Shown: positions 16,188 to 64,000 of the stretch, piece by piece
How the letters are laid out: every line of letters begins with the position of its first letter
Numbering within the stretch: the stretch's first letter is position 1
From: Branchiostoma floridae
Lineage: Eukaryota; Chordata; Leptocardii; Amphioxiformes; Branchiostomatidae
Direction of reading: 5' to 3'
DNA: 64,000 bases
Assembly (NCBI RefSeq): GCF_000003815.2
Contig: NC_049992.1
Span: 12,802,354 to 12,866,353, forward strand
The notes under the pieces: generated by a model
Told to the model about the DNA's origin: nothing
The model's input: only the letters and a program-made list of their open reading frames with translations
Databases searched by the model: none
Program-made: the position numbers and the translations under genes

Positions 16188-16345
16188 TACCCTGAGAGCC
16201 AGCCGGGATCGGGTAGCTAGGACAGGAAAGGGTAGCGATAACTCCTTCAGGCTTAAACTCCCACTAATGTGAGATCTGCGGGCTGACTGCCTTGCGTCCC
16301 CAAACAAAACTCGCTAGCTACCCGGTCCTGTCTGGCTCCCATGTC
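16188..16345. mobile_element. MITE family 2 copy nested in the SINE tail
   Basis: Ends TACCCTGAGAGCCAGCCGGG and GTCTGGCTCCCATGTC. It is flanked by the perfect direct repeat CCGGTGTGCG (16178-16187, 16346-16355), part of the SINE tail. Only one CCGGTGTGCG would exist in the uninterrupted SINE, so order of insertion is certain. Confidence 0.92.
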
Positions 16346-16423
16346 CCGGTGTGCGATGCTACAAATCCTTCCGTCTGGAGATCACACGAATGGAGGCCTC
16401 GTCTCCGGTGTACCGAAAGTGCG

Positions 16424-16680
16424 AAAAGGAACGAAAAGGAGCGAAAAGGAACGAAAAGGAACAAAAAGGAGCGAAAAGGAGCGAAAAGGAGCGAAAGGGA
16501 ACGAAAAGGAACGAAAGGGAACGAAAAAGAACGAAAAGGAAAGTACCGAAAGTGCGAAAAGGAACGAAAAGGAAAGTACCGAAAGTGCGAAAAGGAACGA
16601 AAAGATTGGATAGGAACGAAAAGGAACGAAAAGGAAAGTACCGAAAGTGCGAAAAGGAACGAAAAGGAACGAAGTATGAA
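16424..16680. repeat. GAAAAGGAAC minisatellite, left arm
   Basis: About 25 units of a 10-base motif GAAAAGGAAC / GAAAAGGAGC, interrupted by three copies of a spacer AAAGTACCGAAAGTGC. All three forward frames are open because of the repeat; they are not genes. The complement of the same array lies at 17710-17805. Confidence 0.93.
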
Positions 16681-16924
16681 GCAAAGTGAAATAAAATTCG
16701 ATGGGAATATAAGGTAGCGATATTGTGATCGGCAAATGCATTTGAAACGGACTTTATTTTTGTATTTTGTGGCTTGTTCCACGAAATATCTAGAGCTCCA
16801 ATGGTTCAACGGCGAACCGGCGGGAAAGTGCACGCGTGGAAATAGATAAATACAAATCAAAGGCGATGGGCGGAGTCACGAATCAGTGCGTCCCGGGTTC
16901 CCACGCGGGCTGTCACAGATGAAA

Positions 16925-44494: not shown

Positions 44495-46579
44495 TTTAAG
44501 GAGCACTCTCCCTGACAGGGTTGACTCTTGCGGCAATGACTTGCGATTGATATCGTCAGACATTTCTGCGAGAGTCAACCCTGTGTGTGGGGGGGGGGGG
44601 GTGCCTAGGTGCTGCAGTCCAGCAATTCAAACACAGACAGGCAAAGACAGACAAATACACAGACAAACCCAAAAGTACTTGGAGTGAAGAAATGATACTG
44701 ACCAAGTCTCGTGTAGATGGTGCTATCGGTTCCAATGCCCCAGACAGCGTGTCCCGACGCGACATTCTTCATCTGCCCCTCGACGTTCACCCAGTCGGTG
44801 CCCGAAGACGCTTCATTCTCGAACGTTCCCGAGCGATAAAAGGTGGCGTTGTTGTGGTCCACTCCCCAGACTCCCTTGGACCCCACCGACACGTACTTCA
44901 TCGAACCGTCAATGGGCTTCCACCTTGGTGCTGAAAAGGACACCAAAATGAGATGGGAATTCGAAGGCGAATAAAAAAAAAATATCTGTAATAGTAACAA
45001 TGTCGAACTCTAGCTATAATTACCTCCGTGAAAAGGAGGTATTGTAGTGACTGTTTGTTTGTCCCGGTGATGGCTGATCGCAAGATAACTATAGAACGCC
45101 TGGATGGATTGTTTCGAAACTAGATGTACGTGGGCAAGTATTTATCATATATAAGACAACGGAATGCTATGGATTATTGGCCCCTGGCGACTTGTTATGT
45201 CACAGAAGCCGAAGTTCCGATTTCGTGTCATGGACATGCTATGGATATGGTTTAGGGAGAGGAAGGGAGAGGACATCGTGTGGGTTTTGGCCCCCAGTAT
45301 TGTGGGGTGGATGTAGGGGACAAATTTGTTGCCAGAGTTTGACGAAAAGCAACTCATGATCAAGAAGGGTTTGGCAGATCGTCGCGATTGTTGGTATGTT
45401 CATAGCTTAAGTAGTGATTTACATAATGATATATGCTTCTCATACAAATCAGCATAATTGTTTAGGAACGTTTACTTGTTTTTTACTTGTAAATCTTACC
45501 TGCCTGCATTACTGTGACGAGCAAATCCTGGTTGTTTGTTAAACTTGCATTCAGTTGATGTGCCTTCGCCATCGCTTGTTCTATCAGGCCTATGGTATCA
45601 ATATGGTATTAATAATCTTTATTGCATCATATTACCCGGAGAGCTATACATGCACACATGACCAAATGGGGCCTGATTCATGTGCGTTAATGAAGATATC
45701 AAAGCCTAGAAAGTTCAAACATTATACACTAGTTTACTAGGTACCATTACACAATAAACTATGTACTGACATACTATATATTATACAATAAGATCAGAAC
45801 CTGTTAGAAATAAGAAGACTTATGTTATGGGTCAAATAATCTATTTGTACCTACACATTCATGAAAATCAATGAAATACTAACTGTTTATCTGGGCAGCT
45901 TCCTGAGAGGTCATTCCGAACGCCTCCTCACCGAACCATAGCGTCACAACACACAGCAGAATGACGGCTTTCACCGCATGCAAGTTCCCCATGTTGACTG
46001 CAATACAGCTAGGGAGAATTAGAAATGTAACATAGAAATATTCTAAGTTTGTCAAAGATTGTATCACCAGAATTCTACCATTATAACTTTCTGACAAAGT
46101 TGCTATGTACCAGTCTAAATACATAATCATTTATTCTGAAGAATCGAGAAAACACAACTTAACATATTGATATAGGATTTTGTCTTTCATTATTAAGTAG
46201 GAATTTAAATCTGAAAAAAACACAGTGGCATGGACACTGTCTAATCTAAAGATGACTTACATGTTTTCAGAAGGACCGTTCTCGACAGAATTCTCTCCGT
46301 GTGACAGGAGAACTTGCTTCTATCTGACAGTATGGTCTTCTTACAGTCACATGTTACATGTTATCGTAATAAAATTTCCAAATGGTGTTTTAACATGAGA
46401 ACGGTAATGACGTCACTCAGCTTTAGGCTGAGATGCCAACAATTGAAGATAATCATCAGAAGGCCATAGCCATTAAGACGTGGGATAACTATGCAATGGA
46501 CGGGACCGACCAGGGTAATCTAATGCAGTTGTCCTTGACCTCACTTTACTGACACTTTTGACTGAGTTGGGAAGTAATC

Positions 46580-48960: not shown

Positions 48961-51900
48961 ATGGGGAACTTGCATGCGGTGAAAGCCGTTGTTCTGCTGT
49001 GTGTTGTGACGCTATGGTTCGGTGAGGAGGCGGTCGGAATGACCTCTCAGGAAGCTGCCCAGATAAACAGTTAGTATTTCATTAATTTTCTTGAATTTGT
49101 AGGTACAACTAGATTACTTCATTCATAAGGCTTTTTATTTCTAACAGGTTCTTATCTTATTGTATGATGATATAGTATGTCTGTATATAGTGTATTGTGC
49201 ATGTATGCCTAGTGAACTAGTGAGGCTGCCCAGATAAACAGTTAGTATTTCTTTTATTTTCATGAATTTGTAGGTACAGCTGGATTATTTCCTTCATGAG
49301 GAATTTTATTTCTAACAGGTTCTCATCTTATTGTATAATATATAGTATGGCAGTACATATTAGTTTACTGTGTAATGATTCCTAGCAAATTAGTGTATCA
49401 TATTTTAGCGTTCGAAGCTGTAATATCGTACATTTATTTACGTACATATGCCGTAGACCACATGTGGCTTAGTACATATGTAGCCCTGTAGGTAATAAGA
49501 TGCACTAAAGATTATTGATATCATTGATACCCTAGGCCTGCTAGAACAAGCGGTGGCGAAGGTTCAACACCTGAATGCAAGGGTTGTTAACAACCAGGAC
49601 TTGTTCGTCGCAGTAGTGCAGTCGGGTAAGATTAAAATAACACACAAGTAAACTTTCCTACTAAATCATGTAAATTAGCTCCTGATTAGTATGAAAAGCA
49701 TATCATTATGTAAACTATTACTTAAGCTATGAACATAGCAACAATCATGACGATCCGCCAAGCCCTTCTTGAGTTATTCTTGGTCAAACTCTGGTAACAA
49801 ATTTGGCCCCTACAGTCTCCTCCTACATTACCCGTTGACTTATCCCAAAAAATCCATCAAGGTGTTCTCTAGTTGTCTTGGGAACATACATCCCCGGGAC
49901 AAACAAACGGCAGTCACCACAATTCCTCCTTTTCACGGAGGTAATTATAGCTACAGTTTGACATTGTTAGTATCACAGATGTTAATTTTCTTTTCTTTAT
50001 TCGCCTTCGAATTCTCTCTAATTTTAGTGTGATTTTCAGCACCGAGATGGAAGCCTATTGACGGTTCGATGAAGTACGTGTCGGTTGGGTCCAATGGAGT
50101 CTGGGGAGTGGATCACAACAACGCCATCTTTTATCGCTCGGGAACGTTCGAGAATGAAGCGTCTTCGGGCACCGACTGGGTGAACGTCGAGGGACAGTTG
50201 AAGCAGGTCGCGTCGGGATACGCTGTCTGGGGCATTGGAACCACTAACCTGATCTACACGAGACTTGGTCAGTATCATTTCTTCAGCCCACGTACTTTTG
50301 GGTTTCTCTGTTTGTGTTTGTGAGCCTTGCACAAGTGTTTACAAAGGGTCCTACACTTAGGGCCAGTTCACACGAGGAAAATTGATGGTCGTCCGACAAT
50401 TTCTGTATTATTTTTTGCCAATTTTCCCTTGCACTCACACTGACGTACGGCACATTTGCCGCGACGTTTTAAGCCAGATGAACAGGTTATTGGAAATCGC
50501 AGCGTCGTCAGTTCATAAAGAAATCAATTTTGAATTATAAAAACTCATCGAAAGTATATTCCTTGCTTTCTTTGGACACTGAACACACGCTGTATACACA
50601 CTATGTTTACTCCGTCCACTGAATCAAATGATAAACAAGCACTCTGATCTTGGTCTAACATTCCAACAACTGAAGATAATCAGCAGGAGGCCATAGCTAA
50701 TTAAGGCGTGGGACCGGCCGATGTAATCTAATGTAGTTGTCCTTGACCTCTCTTTACTGACGCCTTTTGACCTGGTTGGAAAGTAATCCGAAAGAAAAAT
50801 GTTTAACCGTAGTTGACAAGTGAAGCATGACCAGAGGAGAGTTGAGTACTGTGATGTAATTATGAGACAGTTTGTAGCTCATTAAATATTGTTTAGTTGT
50901 TATATGATTAAGGGAAAAGGATTAGTAGATGTAAAGCCTACGTCGCATTTCCAAACCCGGGCCCGGCCGGGTAGCTTTCGGGAACGAAAAGTATAATATA
51001 AAAGACGCCAACCTACACAAGACGTCAAGAGAAAAGTCGTGGGCATTATTTGTGTATATTTTATGTATACATTTCCATTTTTCGTTTCCACAAACAGCCC
51101 GACCAGGCCCAGGTTCGAAAATGTGCCGTAAGCACTTACAAATACGGAATGCTAATTAGCACGTCTAATTATCATATTCAGTGCCAATATTCTGCTGCAG
51201 AACCAAGGAAAGTCAACTGGAATTGACTTCGATCATGTGTTCCCAACCAGGTACAAGTGCCAGAAACCCAACTGGAACAGCCTGGGAGCAAATTGCCGGA
51301 GGTCTGAAACAGATAGACGTCAGCTCTACCGCATATTCCGTCTGGGGCGTCAATCGTCATGACTACATCTACCGACGGGTGGGGATCACAGCAGATACAC
51401 CTGCAGGTAAACCAGTCGCCAGACAACATTTAAAAGAGGTATTTCTGGATTCATGGCGAAAGGTTAGCTTTCTGTTACACACACCCGGTTCTCTCAGGAG
51501 TGACTACCCTGAGTGCCAGACAGGATCGGGCAGCTAGCGAGTTTATTCGGGGGCCAAAGGCAGTCAGCCTGCCGATTTCTTACTACCAGGAGGTTTCCTG
51601 GCAGCGAAACCCCCTTCAGGCTTTAAGTCCCCGAGCGCTAATATGAGATCGGCAGGCTGACTACCTTGGGTCCCCGAAACTCGCTAGCTGCCCGATCCTG
51701 ACTGACACCCAGGGTAAGGAGTTCAGTTAAATTCATCCTCATAAGAGGTGCCATTGATGATGTCCGACCATGCAGCTCTAACTAGCATGGCGGCTAGCAA
51801 GTGACCTGACTGCTTATTTGGTAAACCGCTGGCCAGGAACTATAAAATCTTCACTGATGAGTGATGAAAACATTGTTGGACAATTTTCAGCGTGTTTCCG

Positions 51901-53382
51901 TTATTCCAAATATGCAAAAAAAGAGTGATACGAAAGGCTCACCAGGTCCCCTATATGTTGATTCAAACAGATCCAAGTCGCACGGCGCCATGCAATTTTG
52001 GCTTCGGGGATTTCGAGTGTTAGGCCTACGCCACATTCCCAATCCGGGGCCCGGGCAGGCAGCTTTCGGGAGCCAAAAGTATGACACCAAACTACACAAG
52101 ACATAAAGAGAATAGTCGTGGGCATTATTTGTGTATATGTTTTACGTATACATTTCTCTTTCGCGTTTCCACAACTAGACCGGCCGGGCCCGGTTTGGAA
52201 GTGTGACGTTAACTTTGGCCGGCTAAGTAATATCTGAATAAAAGAGACAAAATCCAACATGACACAACATTTTCAAGCATTGATACATTTTATAAAAAGT
52301 ATCACACGAGGAAACTTTTATCAATTTCACACCACTTGTAGAAAACTAGAGCTAATAAGAGATAATGTAGAACGGTTGAGATTATACTCACTATATGATA
52401 ATTACAGGTACCCACTGGCAAAACATTGCGGGCCGTCTGAAGTTCGTGTCGACTGGGTCCGCGGGTGTGTGGGGGGCGAATGTGCACAACCAGGTGTTCT
52501 ACCGCACGGGGACGTACGGCAACGAGGCTTCTGCAGGCATCGGCTGGGACTACATCAGGGGGCAGCTCCTGAAACAGGTGTCGTCAGGAGACAACGTTGT
52601 CTGGGGAGTGGACACCAACAATAAGGTCTACATCAGGGAAGGTCAGCGCTTTTGCTTTTATGTTGAAATTGATAATCCACTGTTGTCATGCGTACAGACT
52701 GATGATACAATCTACATGTATGTTTCTCTACGTCATACTCCTAAATGATACAGATACATTCGTACACAAAACATATTTCAGTATGAAACGTATCTGTTAG
52801 TACATTTTCAGCATCATCATGGAGCGAATTCACGGCGTAGATTAAAGCTCTTGTGCTAGCTTGACGATGTATACTTGTAACTGTAAACTATTCTTTCGTT
52901 CTGACCTGTACTTAATCCTGTGTATCGCTCCTTCTGATTGGTCAGGTGTTAAAATTTTGTAACACCCTGCTGGTCGGACCAACATGAAATGGGGCCTTCT
53001 GATTGGTCCACGTCGCCTGACTATATGATAATACACAGCATAACATGAAATAACTTAGTACACTGTATAACCTAATAGTGTATATCATAGCGAATCGCAT
53101 TCGATAATCACTAAGGATCCCGGGTTTCCGTACGATCACATACATCGAGACAATGATTACATTTCTCGATGACAGAGAGAAGACTATATGTATATTGCAA
53201 ATTTCTTATCCCCAGGAATAAGTCCCAGCACGCCTACTGGAACCGAATGGCGCCAGTTGCCAGAGAAGATGGAGCAAGTAGAGGCAAACCCGAGATTCCA
53301 GCTGGCATGGGGCGTCAACTCAACCGACGTTTTCCAGCGTGTAGCCGGAGTGCCACTTACGGTAAAAATACTCTTGGTATAA
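48961..53382 (+). CDS. secreted tectonin-repeat (TECPR-type) lectin, about 321 aa
   Basis: Six coding exons: 48961-49069, 49536-49625, 50040-50267, 51251-51406, 52408-52641, 53216-53361; the internal junctions are phase 1. The last exon can read on to TAA at 53380-53382, or splice (G/GTAAAA) to an acceptor near 53688 followed at once by TGA. Exon 1 is a signal peptide (AVKAVVLLCVVTLWFGEEAVG), exon 2 a short helical segment (LLEQAVAKVQHLNARVV), and exons 3-6 hold six tectonin blades, each with the W..I-G-LK-VS...VWGV-----IY-R-G pattern (for example GLKQIDVSSTAYSVWGV). Six blades fit a closed beta-propeller like fish-egg lectins and horseshoe-crab tachylectin-1, which bind bacterial glycans. 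A role as a secreted innate-immune or egg lectin is inferred. The coiled exon suggests oligomerisation. It is arranged head-to-head with a pseudogene copy. Confidence 0.9.
50935..51135. mobile_element. MITE family 4 copy
   Basis: GTCGCATTTCCAAACCCGGG then CCCGGCCGGG on the left; CCCGACCAGGCCCAGGTTCG on the right; AAGTCGTGGGCATTATTTGT inside. In intron 3 of the tectonin gene. Confidence 0.75.
51505..51715. mobile_element. MITE family 2 copy in tectonin intron 4
   Basis: Ends TACCCTGAGTGCCAGACAGG and CTGACTGACACCCAGGGTA. Flanks AGGAGTGA and AGGAGTTC are a decayed target duplication. The inverted pseudogene intron has the site without the insertion (CTCTCGAGAGTGACCTGAAT near 41847). Confidence 0.9.
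52018..52217. mobile_element. MITE family 4 copy
   Basis: CACATTCCCAATCCGGGGCC on the left and GGCCCGGTTTGGAAGTGTGA on the right; the interior ATAGTCGTGGGCATTATTTG is shared with 50935-51135. Confidence 0.78.
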
Positions 53383-57504: not shown

Positions 57505-60500
57505 ATGATCGTTCGCCATTCCGTCGACCTTGTAGAGGGTCCTCTACCGAACCCAAATCTCCGGGGCAAGCAGCTGGTCGCCCCGGAGGATGGCATGAAC
57601 CACACCGCCTACGATGTCTTTCTCCAGCCGGGCGAAAGCGTATGTTTGACATCGCCCCCCTCCCCCCTCCTGAACCATGTGTACTACTGTGTATCGGGAC
57701 GTGCAACAGGCACAGCATCCAACGGCCAAGTTTACGAGTTCGCCGCTGATGTTGTAGTGGCGTTTTCATCCAGCATCAGTTGTACGGTAAGTATCAAGCA
57801 TTATGTGAGGTTACGACTGTAGGTAATAGCGTTTGACTGTGAAATCCTAGTATGTGACTGTCCCGTGCCACTACTCTGACACCCTTGTCACTTTTTGTTT
57901 GTTTGCATTGACCTCATCATTGACCTTAACGCCAATCGATCTTTGATCATTGTGAAAACAAGTAGGCTATAATCTGTATGGTATAGAGTAACATGTGTTC
58001 ACTGTTGGTCTTGTGCCCTAATAATACACCGACAGGGACTGCTACCCCCTCTATTGAATGATATATCTACTGACCAGGGGACCGGACATGGTTGTCCTTT
58101 CTCTAACCTCTTAGAACACGGAGCCACATATCCAAACGAGGCCCGGACGTGCTGTTTGCAAAGATGAAAAATGAAAGTGTACACGTATAATTAGAAATTT
58201 GCTGATCCCTTTCGTATATTCTATTATCTTTATATCAAATTTTTCGTTTCCTTAAATTGCATGCGCGGCAGGGCTTCGGTGTGAAAAGCCTTTTTAAGGT
58301 GACCTATCATAGCTGCAAAGACTGTAAAGAGTACATGAGTCACAGAGAAAGAATATGCAGGTGAACGTAAAGGATCATTAATACTAGAAATTCAGTGACA
58401 TTTAGTTGTTGCTGTCGTCCTTGTTTTACGTCTATTGCCTAGCCAGACAAGGTGAGTCAATATCTGTAACGGTAGGGTGCGAGAATGAGGTCTTCAGATG
58501 TGATAAATTTGCAAAGTCGCAGAGGCACTGGACAGCAGTGTATATTATGTGTACAGGGATGTGTTCTAAGCCCCTCGCTATTTAATCTGTACGTTAGTGA
58601 TTTAGTTAACGATCTCAATACAGGAGACCTAGATACCCCTCTACTTCATTCATCCAAAGTATCAAGTTTATTTTATGCCGATGACGTTGTCATGTTGTCA
58701 ACAAGTCAACGTGGCCTACAGAACGCAATCAATGTTCTCGGCCTTTACTGCAATAAATGGAAACTAACAGTAAACTTAAAGAAAACGAAAATCATTGTTT
58801 TCAATCGTACGGGACGATTGTTATCAAACTATAAATTTTGCTTATTCGACAAAGACATAGAAGTGGTATCCTCGTACTGTTATTTAGGCGTAGTATTTAC
58901 AGCGGGGTGTAAATTTAACACAGCAATGAAAACCCTCCAAAAGAAGGCACTAAGGGCGCTATTTAGCATAAGAACAACTCTTGGAGGAAACAATGCTTCA
59001 GTACCACTGCAATGTAAGTTATTTGACGCTTGTGTTGTGCCAATATTATTGTATGGTGCAGAAGTGTGGAGCAATTCTAGTTTAAACGACAATTCTCCAT
59101 TAGAGCAAGCACATCTAAAGTTCTGTAAAGTTGTCTTAGGTGTAAGAAGAAATGCCAGTAATCTCGCTACTAGAGCGGAGCTAGGAAGATTCCCTCTATG
59201 GATCGAGGCTTTCAGTAGACTATTTTCTTATCATTGTAGATTAACTAGAGAAGTACCGACAAATAGCATACAATATGAAGCATTTCTTGTACAACAAGAC
59301 CTACACAGACGCAATATACCATGCTGGCTATCTAATGTAAGTAAGATTTTGGAGGAGTCGGGTTATGCATACCTATTGTTAAACAACGGTCGAGATATAC
59401 CATCAATTCAGTCGGAGGTGAAGCAAAGACTGAAGGACATTTACCTTCAAACCTTTTACTCAGGGCTGAACTCCAGTGGTAGGACCGGAAACCAAGGAAA
59501 CAAACTAAGAACATATAGAAAAATCAAACATACCTACGAAAGAGAACAGTACCTTAATATTCAGAATTTCAACCATCGCCGAGCCATGGCTAGATTAAGA
59601 ATCAGTGACCATCCCCTACAAATTGAAGTGGGAAGATACAACCAGACTCCTCCGAATAATAGACTCTGTACACTTTGTAACTCCAACCGTATAGAGAATG
59701 AAGTCCATTTTATATTAGAGTGTCCTTTATACAATGATATGCGCAACTCTTTTATCAGTGCTCTGAATGTAGTAGATACACGATGTAAAGAGTTAACCAA
59801 CGACAACCTGTTTGTACATATAATGACAACCACAGACAACTTTGTACAACACAAACTCTGTGAGTTCGTATACACATGTTTTAAGAAAAGGGAAGAGTCA
59901 GGTAAACGTTAGATATAGTGATAGCTTAGTTGCAGATGTATTGTCTATTCAATTGTAATGTTACAGTACTTAGTCTTTATAATTAGTATCCCATTATGGG
60001 ATTTGCTGCATTTAGCCCACATGGGCAGGAACATGCAAATAAAGATCATTATTAATATATTATCACTAACGATTTGTCGATGCCTGTTGTAAAAAAAAAT
60101 CATGCTGTTGATTTGTATAAATAAAGTGCGGAAATTGATTTGGTTAGGACACCAGCTTATACAACATCTAAACAAAATCTTACAGTCATCTTGGTCTTCA
60201 TTTGAATTTTGTTTATACTATGGTATCGTTTCCTTGATAGGTTAAGGTCACATCTGATGAAAAGCTCCGCCTCTTTTGCATCTATTGTGATGACGTCGAG
60301 CCGACTGTTGATCGGGCCGTGGCTCGGGCGCTTTCGGAGATTGTCGGTACCGATCGTGACATCGACTGGGGCCGAGGCCACAGCCGAAGGTTCCTGAAGA
60401 AGTCGGACGGGTTCCCGATCAGCGTTCACAACACCTATGGAGAGGCTGGGGCAAGCAATGCTCTGTGCTACAAACATCACGTTGAATCTGCCTACTACGT

Positions 60501-61192
60501 GAAAGGTACTTGTATTCGTAGCGTGCAGTACGCTGTATGATTGATAGGAGGCGTTTATGCCTTTATGCACATAGGGCGTACATGTAGGAAAGGTTTTCAG
60601 TATTAACAGGTGGTCATTGTAAATAGGTACTACCCGTCCATCAAAAGCTGACCACAATGACCAAGTGTATTTTGTGAAGATAGACTTTGTGAAGTCGCTT
60701 GTACAGGTTTAACTGTATTACAGTGGAAGCCAGTTAATTGCACAATGGATAATCGCACACTTCTGTTAAATGCACGGAATTCTTAAATCCCGTGGTGGTG
60801 CGGTCCAGCTTAATAACTTCGCTTTGTTGCACCATTCGGATAATTGCACGAAACGCACTGGCAAATGCGTTGTGCAATTAAGCGGCTTTTACTGTATGTC
60901 TAATTTCCTGAGTTGTATATTTTGCTTAATTTACTAAAAAAAAAAACACCAGTCGTTCCCCCTTGTCTCTCGGTTAGGCAGAGCCACCTACACGTGGGAA
61001 GAGGGTGCCCAGAAGGCGGAGACCCGTATAGACGCTACCAACGGAACCGTCTACAGTATGAACGAGCACGACGCACACCACATGGTCGTGCACGAGGACA
61101 TCCAGGCCCTGTGTGTGTTCCACCCGGTCCTGGTTGGCAACGAGAACCACGATTTCAGCGGAGGGTACTCTGGGTTCAAGCCTTCCGAGTGA
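57505..61192 (+). CDS. two-domain cupin protein with C-terminal ectoine synthase (EctC), 253 aa
   Basis: Exons: 57505-57786 (GTAAGT donor, phase 0), 60241-60505 (phase 1), 60978-61192 (TGA). The C-terminal domain, from about residue 122, aligns along its length with bacterial ectoine synthase: GTDRDIDWG near the start, CYKHHVESAYYVKG, GTVYSMNEHDAHH and LCVFHPVLVGNENHD. The Glu of HVES, the Tyr of TVYSM and the second-loop His of HDAHH correspond to the three metal ligands of EctC. EctC closes N-gamma-acetyl-diaminobutyrate to ectoine, a compatible solute. The N-terminal domain (about 1-112) has the same MIVR start and cupin strand order (VYYCVSGRATGT...ADVVVAF...LRLFCIY) but lacks all three ligands. 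No signal peptide, so cytosolic. No EctA or EctB is in the window. Bacterial origin by transfer followed by intron gain is inferred. The substrate could differ from the bacterial one. Confidence 0.94.
58530..60055 (+). mobile_element. 5'-truncated LINE (CR1/L2-like) in intron 1 of the EctC gene
   Basis: A long frame to 59909 encodes the C-terminal half of a reverse transcriptase: GCVLSPSLFNLYVSDL, the catalytic FYADDVVM, and the WKLTVNLKKTKIIVFNR and YLGVVF thumb-side motifs. Next comes the typical LINE C-terminal region ending in a Cys/His cluster (LCTLCNSN...NEVHFILECPLY). The fingers domain, endonuclease and first frame are missing, as in target-primed insertions cut short. The 3' end has TTTAGCCCACATGGGCAGGA, AATAAAG and an ATT-rich tail. 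The apparent start codon upstream (58485) is host intron. Uninterrupted frame over about 460 codons indicates a young insertion. Confidence 0.92.
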
Positions 61193-64000
61193 TATTTCCG
61201 TTAGATAAAAAGTTGTTTTGTTTGATAACACTAGGGGTGGCGGTTTCGCTTGAAACTTTTCATAGAAGATTTATTTGCAAGTTCATGTCCGGGAGATACT
61301 AGTAATTGCAAGTACATGGTGGAAACATAAGAGGCATACAATTGACAATATACAGGGATAAACATAATTGTAGAATGAGAGGCTAATCGATTCCTATTGT
61401 TGACTAATATTACTATTAGTTGGATTTGACTTCTTTTTTTGGAAACAGAGGAAGATGAAAAGACCGACTTGTTCTATAATTTGTGGGTTCTGCGATTTTA
61501 AGAGGAAAGTGGCTTCCTGTTCATCTGTGAATGTGGGGAAGTATTATGTGTTGTCTGTTTATTGTCAGGCACTATGGCCAATAAGAACGAACAATTGACA
61601 GTGTATTTAAAAAAACGATAATCTAGTATACTTAAAATCAAAATACAGGATTCACACTGTATCTCGTGTACGTGGTCTGTGTACGACGTGACAGTAGTTA
61701 TTCCAGACCTTACTTGTGGAAACAACATCAGAGTATAATGGCACTCTAACAATATCGTTCTCAGACGCCAAGAGGGGAGTCGCAAATGAATGCGCCAGCT
61801 TACGCCTCCTGGTGTCAAAAGTGTCCACGCGCATCAGTGCAAAGAGCCAGCTGTTGCTGCTTCATCTTAGTTGTGACATAACAATCTTAAGTTCCTTCTT
61901 TCATATACAAGATGACATAGAAGCGACTTGTATGACAAACGTAGGAGCGAACTGCCATCCGGATGGATACCCAAGCTATATCACTTCATTGTTGCGAGGT
62001 AAAACAGAGTTGCTCATTGTCAATACTACGTACTTCGTCAAGAGGTGACCTTTCTTCCTATAGGTACAAATTGTGCGTTCCGAACTCCCCAAGCCTGATC
62101 CACTGGACTTGACACGACAAATAAAATTACAGCGACTTTTGTCAGGTCTACATGTATAGCAACTACTTACAGTACAACTTAAGACACATAACGTTATATG
62201 GATATCTATAGGTTTGAACAAATCAACATATATGGTCTAGCATGTCATTTACACTATTGGTCCTATGGTATAAACATTCGTGGATATATTGCCTACTTGT
62301 ACACAATTAGGATTATCGCCTGCCAGAATGTAGTTTAGATTTATCTATCGTACAGAGAGTAGCAAATTCTTTAGAGCAAGCGGAAAGTAATACTAGTAAC
62401 GTTATATCTAGAGAGATCAGTTAAAGTATAACGAACTGTAATTTCGAGAAGTAACTAACATATACTAGTTATTGACGATGCAACTTATTAAATCGTCGGC
62501 GGACAGAAGTTGGTACCTTTAAATCTGAACCGGAACAGAACATATATAACTTCTTAATCATTTGTTGGCGATTATCGGATATTACTGCAAAACATCAAAG
62601 CATAGGTACTTAACCGTAGAAATGGAAAATATAAGTATAGAAATGCAAATATATGACGGACCAACAGACTCTGGCTGTAAGAATAATTGCAATTTTCTCA
62701 TTGTTTGAAGCGCTAATTGTGATGAGCAGTTAGGATCGTGTTTTTTTTGCCCCGCAATGCAGTGGACTGTCTCTGTGTCAGTGTCTCCAGAGGGCTGATG
62801 TAACAACTCAAAATCGAAACGTTTCTCAAGCTCTTGCTTTCCCTAAGCGTTTAAAGTTTAATCCGTCCTTTTAGGCTAGCTGATAAGCGGAACCGGGAGC
62901 TTGAGAAATTTTGCCTTCTCACACCTGCTTGGACATTGCTTAGACTCCACCTGCAGCTTCGTCTACCAACGTCTGGATGGGGGGTGGGGGGTGGCTGAGG
63001 GTGCTTGTATACATGTAGATTTATGTAGAGCGTATATGCATATAAGTTATATAAAGGTAGTGTGTCAACTGCCCTATGTATTGACAAACTCGATCCGCAA
63101 TGAAGTTTCCACAAACTGCTCAAAAATTCGCAAAGGATTTTGATAGAAGCATTTTCTTTCCCCTAGTCACCCCTCCATACGTAATTGGAACAATTCAGGC
63201 GTAAATCGTTTATCGTCAGGGTACCAAGTAAGTTTTTGCCCTGTTTAAGTGCACGAACGTACCAAGAAAGGAACTTCAGGTACCAAGAAAGAACCCGTAT
63301 CTTAAAGATAAGATTTGATATCTGTATAACATGCGTTGAATGTTTTATAGAGAGAGCGGGCCAATAAGGTTAGAATAACATTGTACTTACTTGTATTTTC
63401 ACCCAAATACAAAATGGTACATTCTAGAAGCACTGCTTTACATAGACCAATCACAAACGAGAATTGTGCTGTGATTTTCCGTTCAAGACATTGGGCGCCA
63501 TTGTCCGACTCTTTTTTCGACGGAGGAACGTCGGATCGCGGATCGCTGGATCTGTTCGCAAGATTGAACTGAAATGTTTCTCGTCTGCGTTCACCGTGCA
63601 TTGTGTGAGTGGCTGCAGGCCAGTCCAGGGAGGTTTCTATAATATTTTGTCTGGAATTTTTCAGTCAGTCATTCCGTCAGAGCCTCAAAAATCTTACGTC
63701 AACAAAGAACGCGGCACTAAAGACAGCAAAGTTGGCTTTTAATTGAAGCTTTTATCCAGATTTTTGGCACAATTTTCTGTTTATATATTGATGATCTCAG
63801 ACAAAACGCGCGGGTCCCGGATCGATATGAAACAACAACCAGTGCCCCAGCTCACTATGTAGAGTGAAATAGTAACGTTAAGTCAGAACCTGAAAAACTC
63901 CCACAAAGATTTAGATTTAGTTTGAGTTGTTGTTTTTTTAAGGAAGGAAAATAGAAAAGAAAAGCTCAGCTGTAGTGGTCTCGACAGATGGTCTCGACAG
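61193..64000. other. 3' flank, no gene recognised
   Basis: No open frame here shows a domain I recognise. The region contains only short direct repeats (for example AGGTACCAAGAAAG near 63219 and 63278) and ordinary AT-rich DNA. The 3' UTR of the EctC gene probably occupies the first few hundred bases. Confidence 0.5.

Follow-up and report, generated by a model that had tools for sequence, protein, structure and literature searches.

The window analysed here, a stretch of 64,000 nucleotides of contig NC_049992.1 of the amphioxus Branchiostoma floridae, carries a three-exon gene for a protein of 253 amino acids (aa) that sequence comparison identifies as a tandem EctC-EctC fusion. Its second half is an EctC (ectoine synthase) domain with the metal ligands intact, and the half before it is also an EctC, though degenerate and without these ligands. 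We consider it likely that this tandem EctC bicupin was gained from bacteria long ago and kept as a metal-cupin cyclodehydratase that acts on an N-acyl-diamine other than the product of EctA.

The gene starts with an ATG at 57505, and its TGA stop codon ends at 61192. The original prediction had proposed these three exons, this reading frame and these end points, and all were recovered: the coordinates match, both introns are bounded by GT..AG, and the product has 253 aa. The parts of the gene are as follows, with residue equivalents numbered after P. lautus EctC by alignment to solved chains, and residue roles taken from passages of PMC6344544.

57505..57786, + strand: exon 1 with codons 1-94, encoding the larger part of the degenerate EctC half at the N-terminus (homology of this half from profile comparison)
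57787..60240, + strand: intron 1, 2454 bp, GT..AG, phase 0, containing a reverse transcriptase open reading frame (ORF; RVT_1, E 2.8e-15)
60241..60505, + strand: exon 2, the end of the N-terminal half, then the C-terminal EctC half starting at about 60313 (aa 119)
60484..60486, + strand: codon Glu176, equivalent to Fe ligand Glu57
60506..60977, + strand: intron 2, 472 bp, GT..AG, phase 1
60978..61192, + strand: exon 3, the remainder of the EctC half through the stop codon
61052..61054, + strand: codon Tyr208, equivalent to Fe ligand Tyr84; Phe in the paralogues C8a and C8b and in ten bacterial tandem proteins (see below)
61076..61078, + strand: codon His216, equivalent to Fe ligand His92

Other choices of splice sites also leave the frame open (12 models, 249-257 aa); the model chosen is that of the paralogues. 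The exons have a G+C content of 55-59%, against 42% for the window. Within intron 1, positions 58476-59912 form an open 478-aa reverse transcriptase frame (RVT_1), probably part of a non-long-terminal-repeat (non-LTR) element.

Family and protein searches revealed four two-domain loci in the amphioxus genome: the window locus (C14), C11 at 10.03 Mb, C8a (C8, 7.29 Mb) and C8b (C8, 18.41 Mb). Since three further loci carry the same two-domain gene, the window gene is not a product of chance. The C8a and C8b genes are intact and encode both domains; their products are 50% and 46% identical, respectively, to the window protein, and 59% identical when compared with one another. Both window introns have same-phase counterparts at aligned places in C8a and C8b, C8b having one extra intron. 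C11 is a close copy of the window gene (89% in the EctC part), and its intron 1, of 181 bp, has no room for the reverse transcriptase ORF. In its first exon, C11 (G000:C11:10030283 downwards, L008) has one inserted base that truncates the frame after 81 aa; the copy may be a pseudogene, or the insertion may be an error of sequencing or assembly. With this frameshifted piece compared in register, the window gene and C11 differ over all exons by a synonymous distance (dS) of 0.164 and a nonsynonymous distance (dN) of 0.050, a ratio of 0.30. We count this ratio as a sign of constraint, together with the three intact copies, which have diverged to 46-59% identity with common intron positions and phases.

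These observations also bear on bacterial contamination or a chimeric contig, a reading that would suit a mainly bacterial family such as EctC (passages of PMC5924519). We give it practically no credence, since the gene lies on a 21.8-Mb contig, contains two spliceosomal introns at places and in phases common to paralogues on another contig, and has a reverse transcriptase ORF within the first of these introns. The earlier view that this is a native, intron-bearing gene is therefore upheld.

The C-terminal half belongs to the EctC family. PF06339 (Ectoine_synth) spans aa 123-247 of the window protein (107.3 bits, E 8.4e-31, cut-off 27), and solved EctC chains align within aa 121-249 (E 1.7e-17 to 1.4e-14). 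The Fe ligands Glu57, Tyr84 and His92 correspond to E176, Y208 and H216, and positions Ser23, Arg25, Thr40, Tyr52, Cys104, Phe106, Glu114 and His116 are retained as well. In L-ectoine synthase (P. lautus 5onm, 5onn and 5ono; 5bxx and 5by5), which the C-terminal half resembles in profile and Fe ligands, Arg25, Thr40 and Tyr52 contact the substrate, and Ser23 and Phe106 the product. Thus, the earlier description of the second half as an EctC with its metal ligands intact agrees with our searches, whose matches are EctCs, and with the residue alignment; the motifs quoted with it (YKHHVES, CVFHP and a third) are all in the protein. Matches to F-112 (E 0.051), to 2vqc and 8ysx (E 0.19 and 0.64) and to 3rns and 3ugm (E 4e-5 and 0.0015) were weak and were set aside.

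In contrast to the solved enzymes, the window protein is a tandem of 253 aa, and against the NCBIfam ectoine synthase model PRK13290.1 it scores 107.7, under the curated cut-off of 128. The place of Trp21 is taken by Gly140, and Trp137 stands three positions before it. Trp21 was at its canonical place in 5/5 EctCs of ectABC operons aligned. The shifted Trp (WGxG.SRR) was observed in the window copy, C11 and C8b, in each of the ten bacterial tandem proteins, and in 53 of 61 single-domain rows under the binning used (54 if L063, put in the wrong bin for its long N-terminus, is counted); C8a has Phe there. Passages of PMC6344544 report that the Trp is moved by two residues in some orphan EctCs, that binding residues are mostly retained in orphans, and that in P. 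lautus EctC the Trp21Ala and Tyr84Ala variants retain 9.7% and 15.1% of activity. At position 38, the window copy and the five ectABC proteins carry His, C8a, C8b and 48 of 53 orphan single-domain rows carry Thr, and the ten bacterial tandem proteins carry Cys.

The N-terminal half is where the architecture departs from a single EctC. Using hhalign, we compared 11 N-terminal halves with 61 single-domain EctCs and obtained a probability of 99.2 and an E value of 1.7e-19 over 102 collinear columns; the best of 30 column shuffles reached a probability of 1.4 (E 0.038), and the reversed profile 0.1. The window N-terminal half alone also matched EctC (probability 95.7, E 1e-8), and PF06339 matches this half in 10/10 bacterial tandem genomes (E <= 3.8e-4). 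In the window protein, aa 1-118 gave no PF06339 match and a Cupin_2 match under the cut-off, and exon 1 alone had no Pfam match; for the window copy, it is therefore the relatives and the profile comparison that support a tandem. An EctA-EctC fusion, an arrangement that passages of PMC5796728 report in some Eukarya, was rejected because the first half is EctC-like.

The bacterial relatives come from a scan of genome contigs with one peptide pattern, to which relatives lacking the pattern are invisible; it returned 363 stretches with 349 relatives, of which the best 80 were kept. Both halves aligned in ten of these best 80 loci (L034-L043), at 32-35% identity. All ten are from Alphaproteobacteria: seven Stappia (one a metagenome-assembled genome, MAG), Mesorhizobium sp. 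Root554, one Rhodobacteraceae MAG and one Salinarimonadaceae MAG. The other 70 align only from residue 105 or later. By tblastn, no EctA or EctB was found near 79 of the best 80 loci (flanks of up to 6 kb, some shorter), L080 being the sole exception.

A tree computed from 81 rows over 135 columns and rooted on six canonical-type rows (five from ectABC operons, one from Marinobacter) placed the four amphioxus rows in one clade (support 99/87), the ten bacterial tandem rows in another (99/93), and joined the two (98/99). This joint clade is nested in a 68-row clade of WGxG-type, that is orphan, EctCs (99/96); the six canonical-type rows and seven further rows with a single domain fall outside it. 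An approximately unbiased (AU) test rejected, mildly, a clade of amphioxus and canonical-type EctCs (p 0.036). The original prediction had called for a tree; the present one puts the amphioxus proteins with bacterial tandem EctCs among orphan-type ones. Independently of the tree, the tandem grouping is supported by the Tyr187, Trp189 and Met210 columns (window numbering), which are found in 14/14 tandem proteins and in 0/68 of the other EctCs aligned. With the orphan (solitary) EctCs described in passages of PMC5924519 and PMC6344544, the window copy has in common the displaced Trp of WGxG.SRR, the absence of ectAB nearby and the clade, but the orphans seen are single-domain and mostly have Thr38, whereas the window copy is a tandem with His38. 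Its likeness to the bacterial tandems lies in the degenerate N-terminal half, the alignment over both halves and the Tyr/Trp/Met columns; they have Phe84, Ser104 and Cys38 where it has Tyr84, Cys104 and His38. We found no published name for these bacterial tandem EctC-EctC proteins.

The wider spread of the tandem form was examined with the N-terminal half profile. At E < 1e-40, this profile matched 4/297 genomes drawn from the order to which G003 belongs, three of which were known before. Among 385 genomes from the class and 398 from the phylum of G003, it matched nothing but the seed genome itself, and in the phyla that include G012 and G013 it matched 0/244 and 0/296 genomes. Many weaker matches are open frames of single-domain EctC length, and G940 and some longer frames among them may be other tandems. 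At G940:C81:2169-2884, a 435-aa frame carries two matches to the profile and is perhaps an independent tandem EctC. A phage origin was rejected: 2 of 50,697 phage records match, with the EctC half alone, and the best 80 of 163 viral stretches match from residue 108 or later. Those 163 stretches, on viral contigs, encode EctC relatives (best 80 loci kept, L114-L193), and a Pseudoalteromonas phage (MN313256.1, 21666-22004) encodes a protein annotated as an ectoine synthase/ParB multidomain protein. The plasmid search returned 118 records, none with a single place covering >80% of the query.

The surroundings of the bacterial tandem genes suggest what their products may do. In 8/10 loci the gene adjoins a Lys_Orn_oxgnase N-monooxygenase (PF13434) and an IucA/IucC-FhuF synthetase; the siderophore-gene families were scanned on the copies at L043, and the remaining loci by tblastn against those. 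At L043, a 2-oxoglutarate (2OG)/WelO5-like protein follows. PF06339 picks up a further EctC, scoring about 200 bits, in 4/10 tandem host genomes, and EctA exceeds its cut-off in exactly these four; in the other six hosts, EctA is under the cut-off in four and without a match in two. Consequently, the tandem protein is retained in six genomes without an EctA over the cut-off. The siderophore-gene neighbours suggest that a ring is closed on a siderophore diamine bearing a hydroxyl or acyl group, though two of the ten members do without such neighbours. Seven annotated plasmid loci carry an EctC without ectAB (L024-L029, L198): three lie beside nonribosomal peptide synthetase (NRPS), polyketide synthase (PKS) or acyl-carrier genes, one has a tryptophan halogenase as its neighbour, and the remaining three adjoin genes of other kinds. 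The single-domain orphan EctCs beside NRPS, PKS or acyl-carrier genes (L025, L026 and L028) hint at ring formation in natural products.

The invariant residues of the tandem proteins speak to whether they are enzymes at all. A non-catalytic, binding or regulatory bicupin that holds a small metabolite or a metal would be in keeping with an N-terminal half without ligands, with the score under the NCBIfam cut-off, and with Phe in place of Tyr84 in C8a and C8b (two of the four amphioxus loci) and in all ten bacterial tandem proteins. Nevertheless, Glu57, His92, Arg25, Thr40 and Tyr52 are invariant across the 14 tandem proteins, as for an active site, and biosynthetic enzymes adjoin 8/10 of the bacterial genes; we consider a non-catalytic role improbable.

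Next to these enzymatic signs stands the question of ectoine itself. The original prediction had named the gene an ectoine synthase and had proposed looking for EctA and EctB in the same genome. In a six-frame search of the amphioxus genome, which can miss an intron-split gene, EctA had 0 matches, and the two fragments that matched EctB scored 31.7 and 29.7 bits, where the cut-off is 552.2. These fragments are generic, because the controls match likewise (14/14). A true animal ectoine synthase would have to close N-gamma-acetyl-diaminobutyrate to the osmolyte ectoine, with the substrate coming from food, from symbionts or from an animal acetyltransferase that has escaped recognition. The retained metal triad, Arg25, Thr40, Tyr52, Cys104 and Phe106 agree with this, as does His38, found in 5/5 ectABC EctCs; passages of PMC6344544 credit orphan EctCs with the structural hallmarks of the enzyme, and, according to passages of PMC5924519, an orphan P. 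syringae EctC yielded ectoine in an H. elongata ectC mutant, though that review rates the data set as still short of conclusive. On the other side are the lack of EctA and of any EctB over the cut-off, the displaced Trp21 in the light of the low activity of Trp21Ala, the mild AU rejection, and the nearest relatives found, which are tandem proteins whose host genomes lack an EctA over the cut-off in 6/10 cases. The name ectoine synthase is therefore not borne out, and we rate an ectoine-making animal enzyme as unlikely, if slightly less so than the non-catalytic bicupin. Of the two products first proposed, the one that fits the present results is the related cyclic amidine, formed from an N-acetyl-diamine of the animal's own; ectoine is not supported.

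Structure comparison used a predicted fold of the bacterial relative L034, which superposes on EctC 5ono with a root-mean-square deviation (rmsd) of 1.8 over 117 columns at 30% identity. For L034 only, a fold similarity to (S)-ureidoglycine aminohydrolase/DUF861 bicupins was also seen, which would suit a bicupin that hydrolyses an aminal or amidine and whose EctC resemblance is merely ancestral. With 9-12% sequence identity to that family, and with sequence searches that retrieve EctC and give no DUF861 match, this reading seems very unlikely.

Our model is therefore the gain from bacteria of a tandem EctC that works as a cyclodehydratase. A bacterial tandem EctC-EctC gene, most likely from an alphaproteobacterium-like donor, would have entered the animal lineage, acquired introns and duplicated; the direction and date of transfer are inferred, since the comparison took in one animal genome plus bacteria, phages, plasmids and viral contigs. 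The N-terminal copy, its ligands lost, may serve as a scaffold or built-in pseudo-dimer partner. By analogy with EctC chemistry, the C-terminal copy would bind Fe(II) through Glu176, Tyr208 and His216, the amide carbonyl would be activated and attacked by a nearby amine, and water would leave to give a cyclic amidine, or the reaction would run in reverse. The substrate would be an N-acyl-diamine other than N-gamma-acetyl-diaminobutyrate, because Trp21 is displaced, EctA is lacking and the bacterial gene context points elsewhere. A bolder version, which we put forward tentatively and think less probable than the general model, is that the amphioxus line domesticated a siderophore-associated bacterial tandem EctC as a metal-dependent cyclodehydratase making a novel cyclic amidine from an N-acyl-diamine of the animal, with Tyr84 and Phe84 subfamilies of different chemistry. 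IucA/IucC (PF04183), whose genes adjoin the bacterial tandems, had no match in the amphioxus genome.

Several points weigh against this model. The tree draws on 135 columns, its branches are long, and the placing of its root on canonical-type rows was our own choice; with the bacterial tandem rows removed, the amphioxus rows are left without a starred wider placement. Two of the bacterial loci (L034 and L036) have no neighbouring siderophore genes, and their genomes have no PF04183 match. Some tandem host genomes are MAGs and may be incomplete, which bears on the absence of EctA, as does the limit of the six-frame search in the amphioxus genome. The commonness of Phe84 suggests, from the alignment, that the Tyr84 ligand is dispensable in the tandem clade and that its chemistry may differ. 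His38 and Tyr84 of the window copy match canonical EctC, and passages of PMC6344544 see orphan EctCs as retaining ectoine synthase hallmarks even with the shifted Trp, so that ectoine synthase activity keeps some probability.

Elsewhere in the window, Tectonin/propeller exons of a lectin-like family lie upstream of the gene (44608-45009 on the - strand; 51169-51534 and 52380-52745 on the + strand), and overlapping long frames with repeated KERKGTKRNE-type units at 16268-16714 form a tandem repeat tract. Positions 61384-61542 match a stretch near the C8a paralogue (L009) at 82% and are probably a dispersed repeat. An Rfam scan of 40000-64000 gave 0 matches.

Sequences related to ectA/ectC have been noted in animals before: passages of PMC5924519 and PMC5796728, citing Harding et al., place them in Branchiostoma floridae and Saccoglossus kowalevskii. 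They are very likely of the same gene family and possibly include this gene; those passages state no architecture, copy number, affiliation, or which gene occurs in which animal. Within listings of the open-licence PMC literature, we recognised no further paper on animal ectC for amphioxus, Branchiostoma, lancelet or Saccoglossus, and none that deals with tandem EctCs or with an EctC next to IucA/IucC, several listed papers mentioning both 'ectoine synthase' and 'IucA'. Thus, the presence of ectA/ectC-related sequences in B. floridae is already in print, and the tandem architecture and the bacterial affiliation did not come up in our literature searches.

The reviews consulted call the function of orphan EctCs unclear. 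A tandem form common to an animal and to bacterial siderophore clusters narrows that function to testable substrates, and it provides an example of a metabolic enzyme from bacteria that an animal has retained long enough for introns and paralogues to arise. If the animal protein does make a cyclic amidine other than ectoine, its product would represent a new class of animal metabolite.

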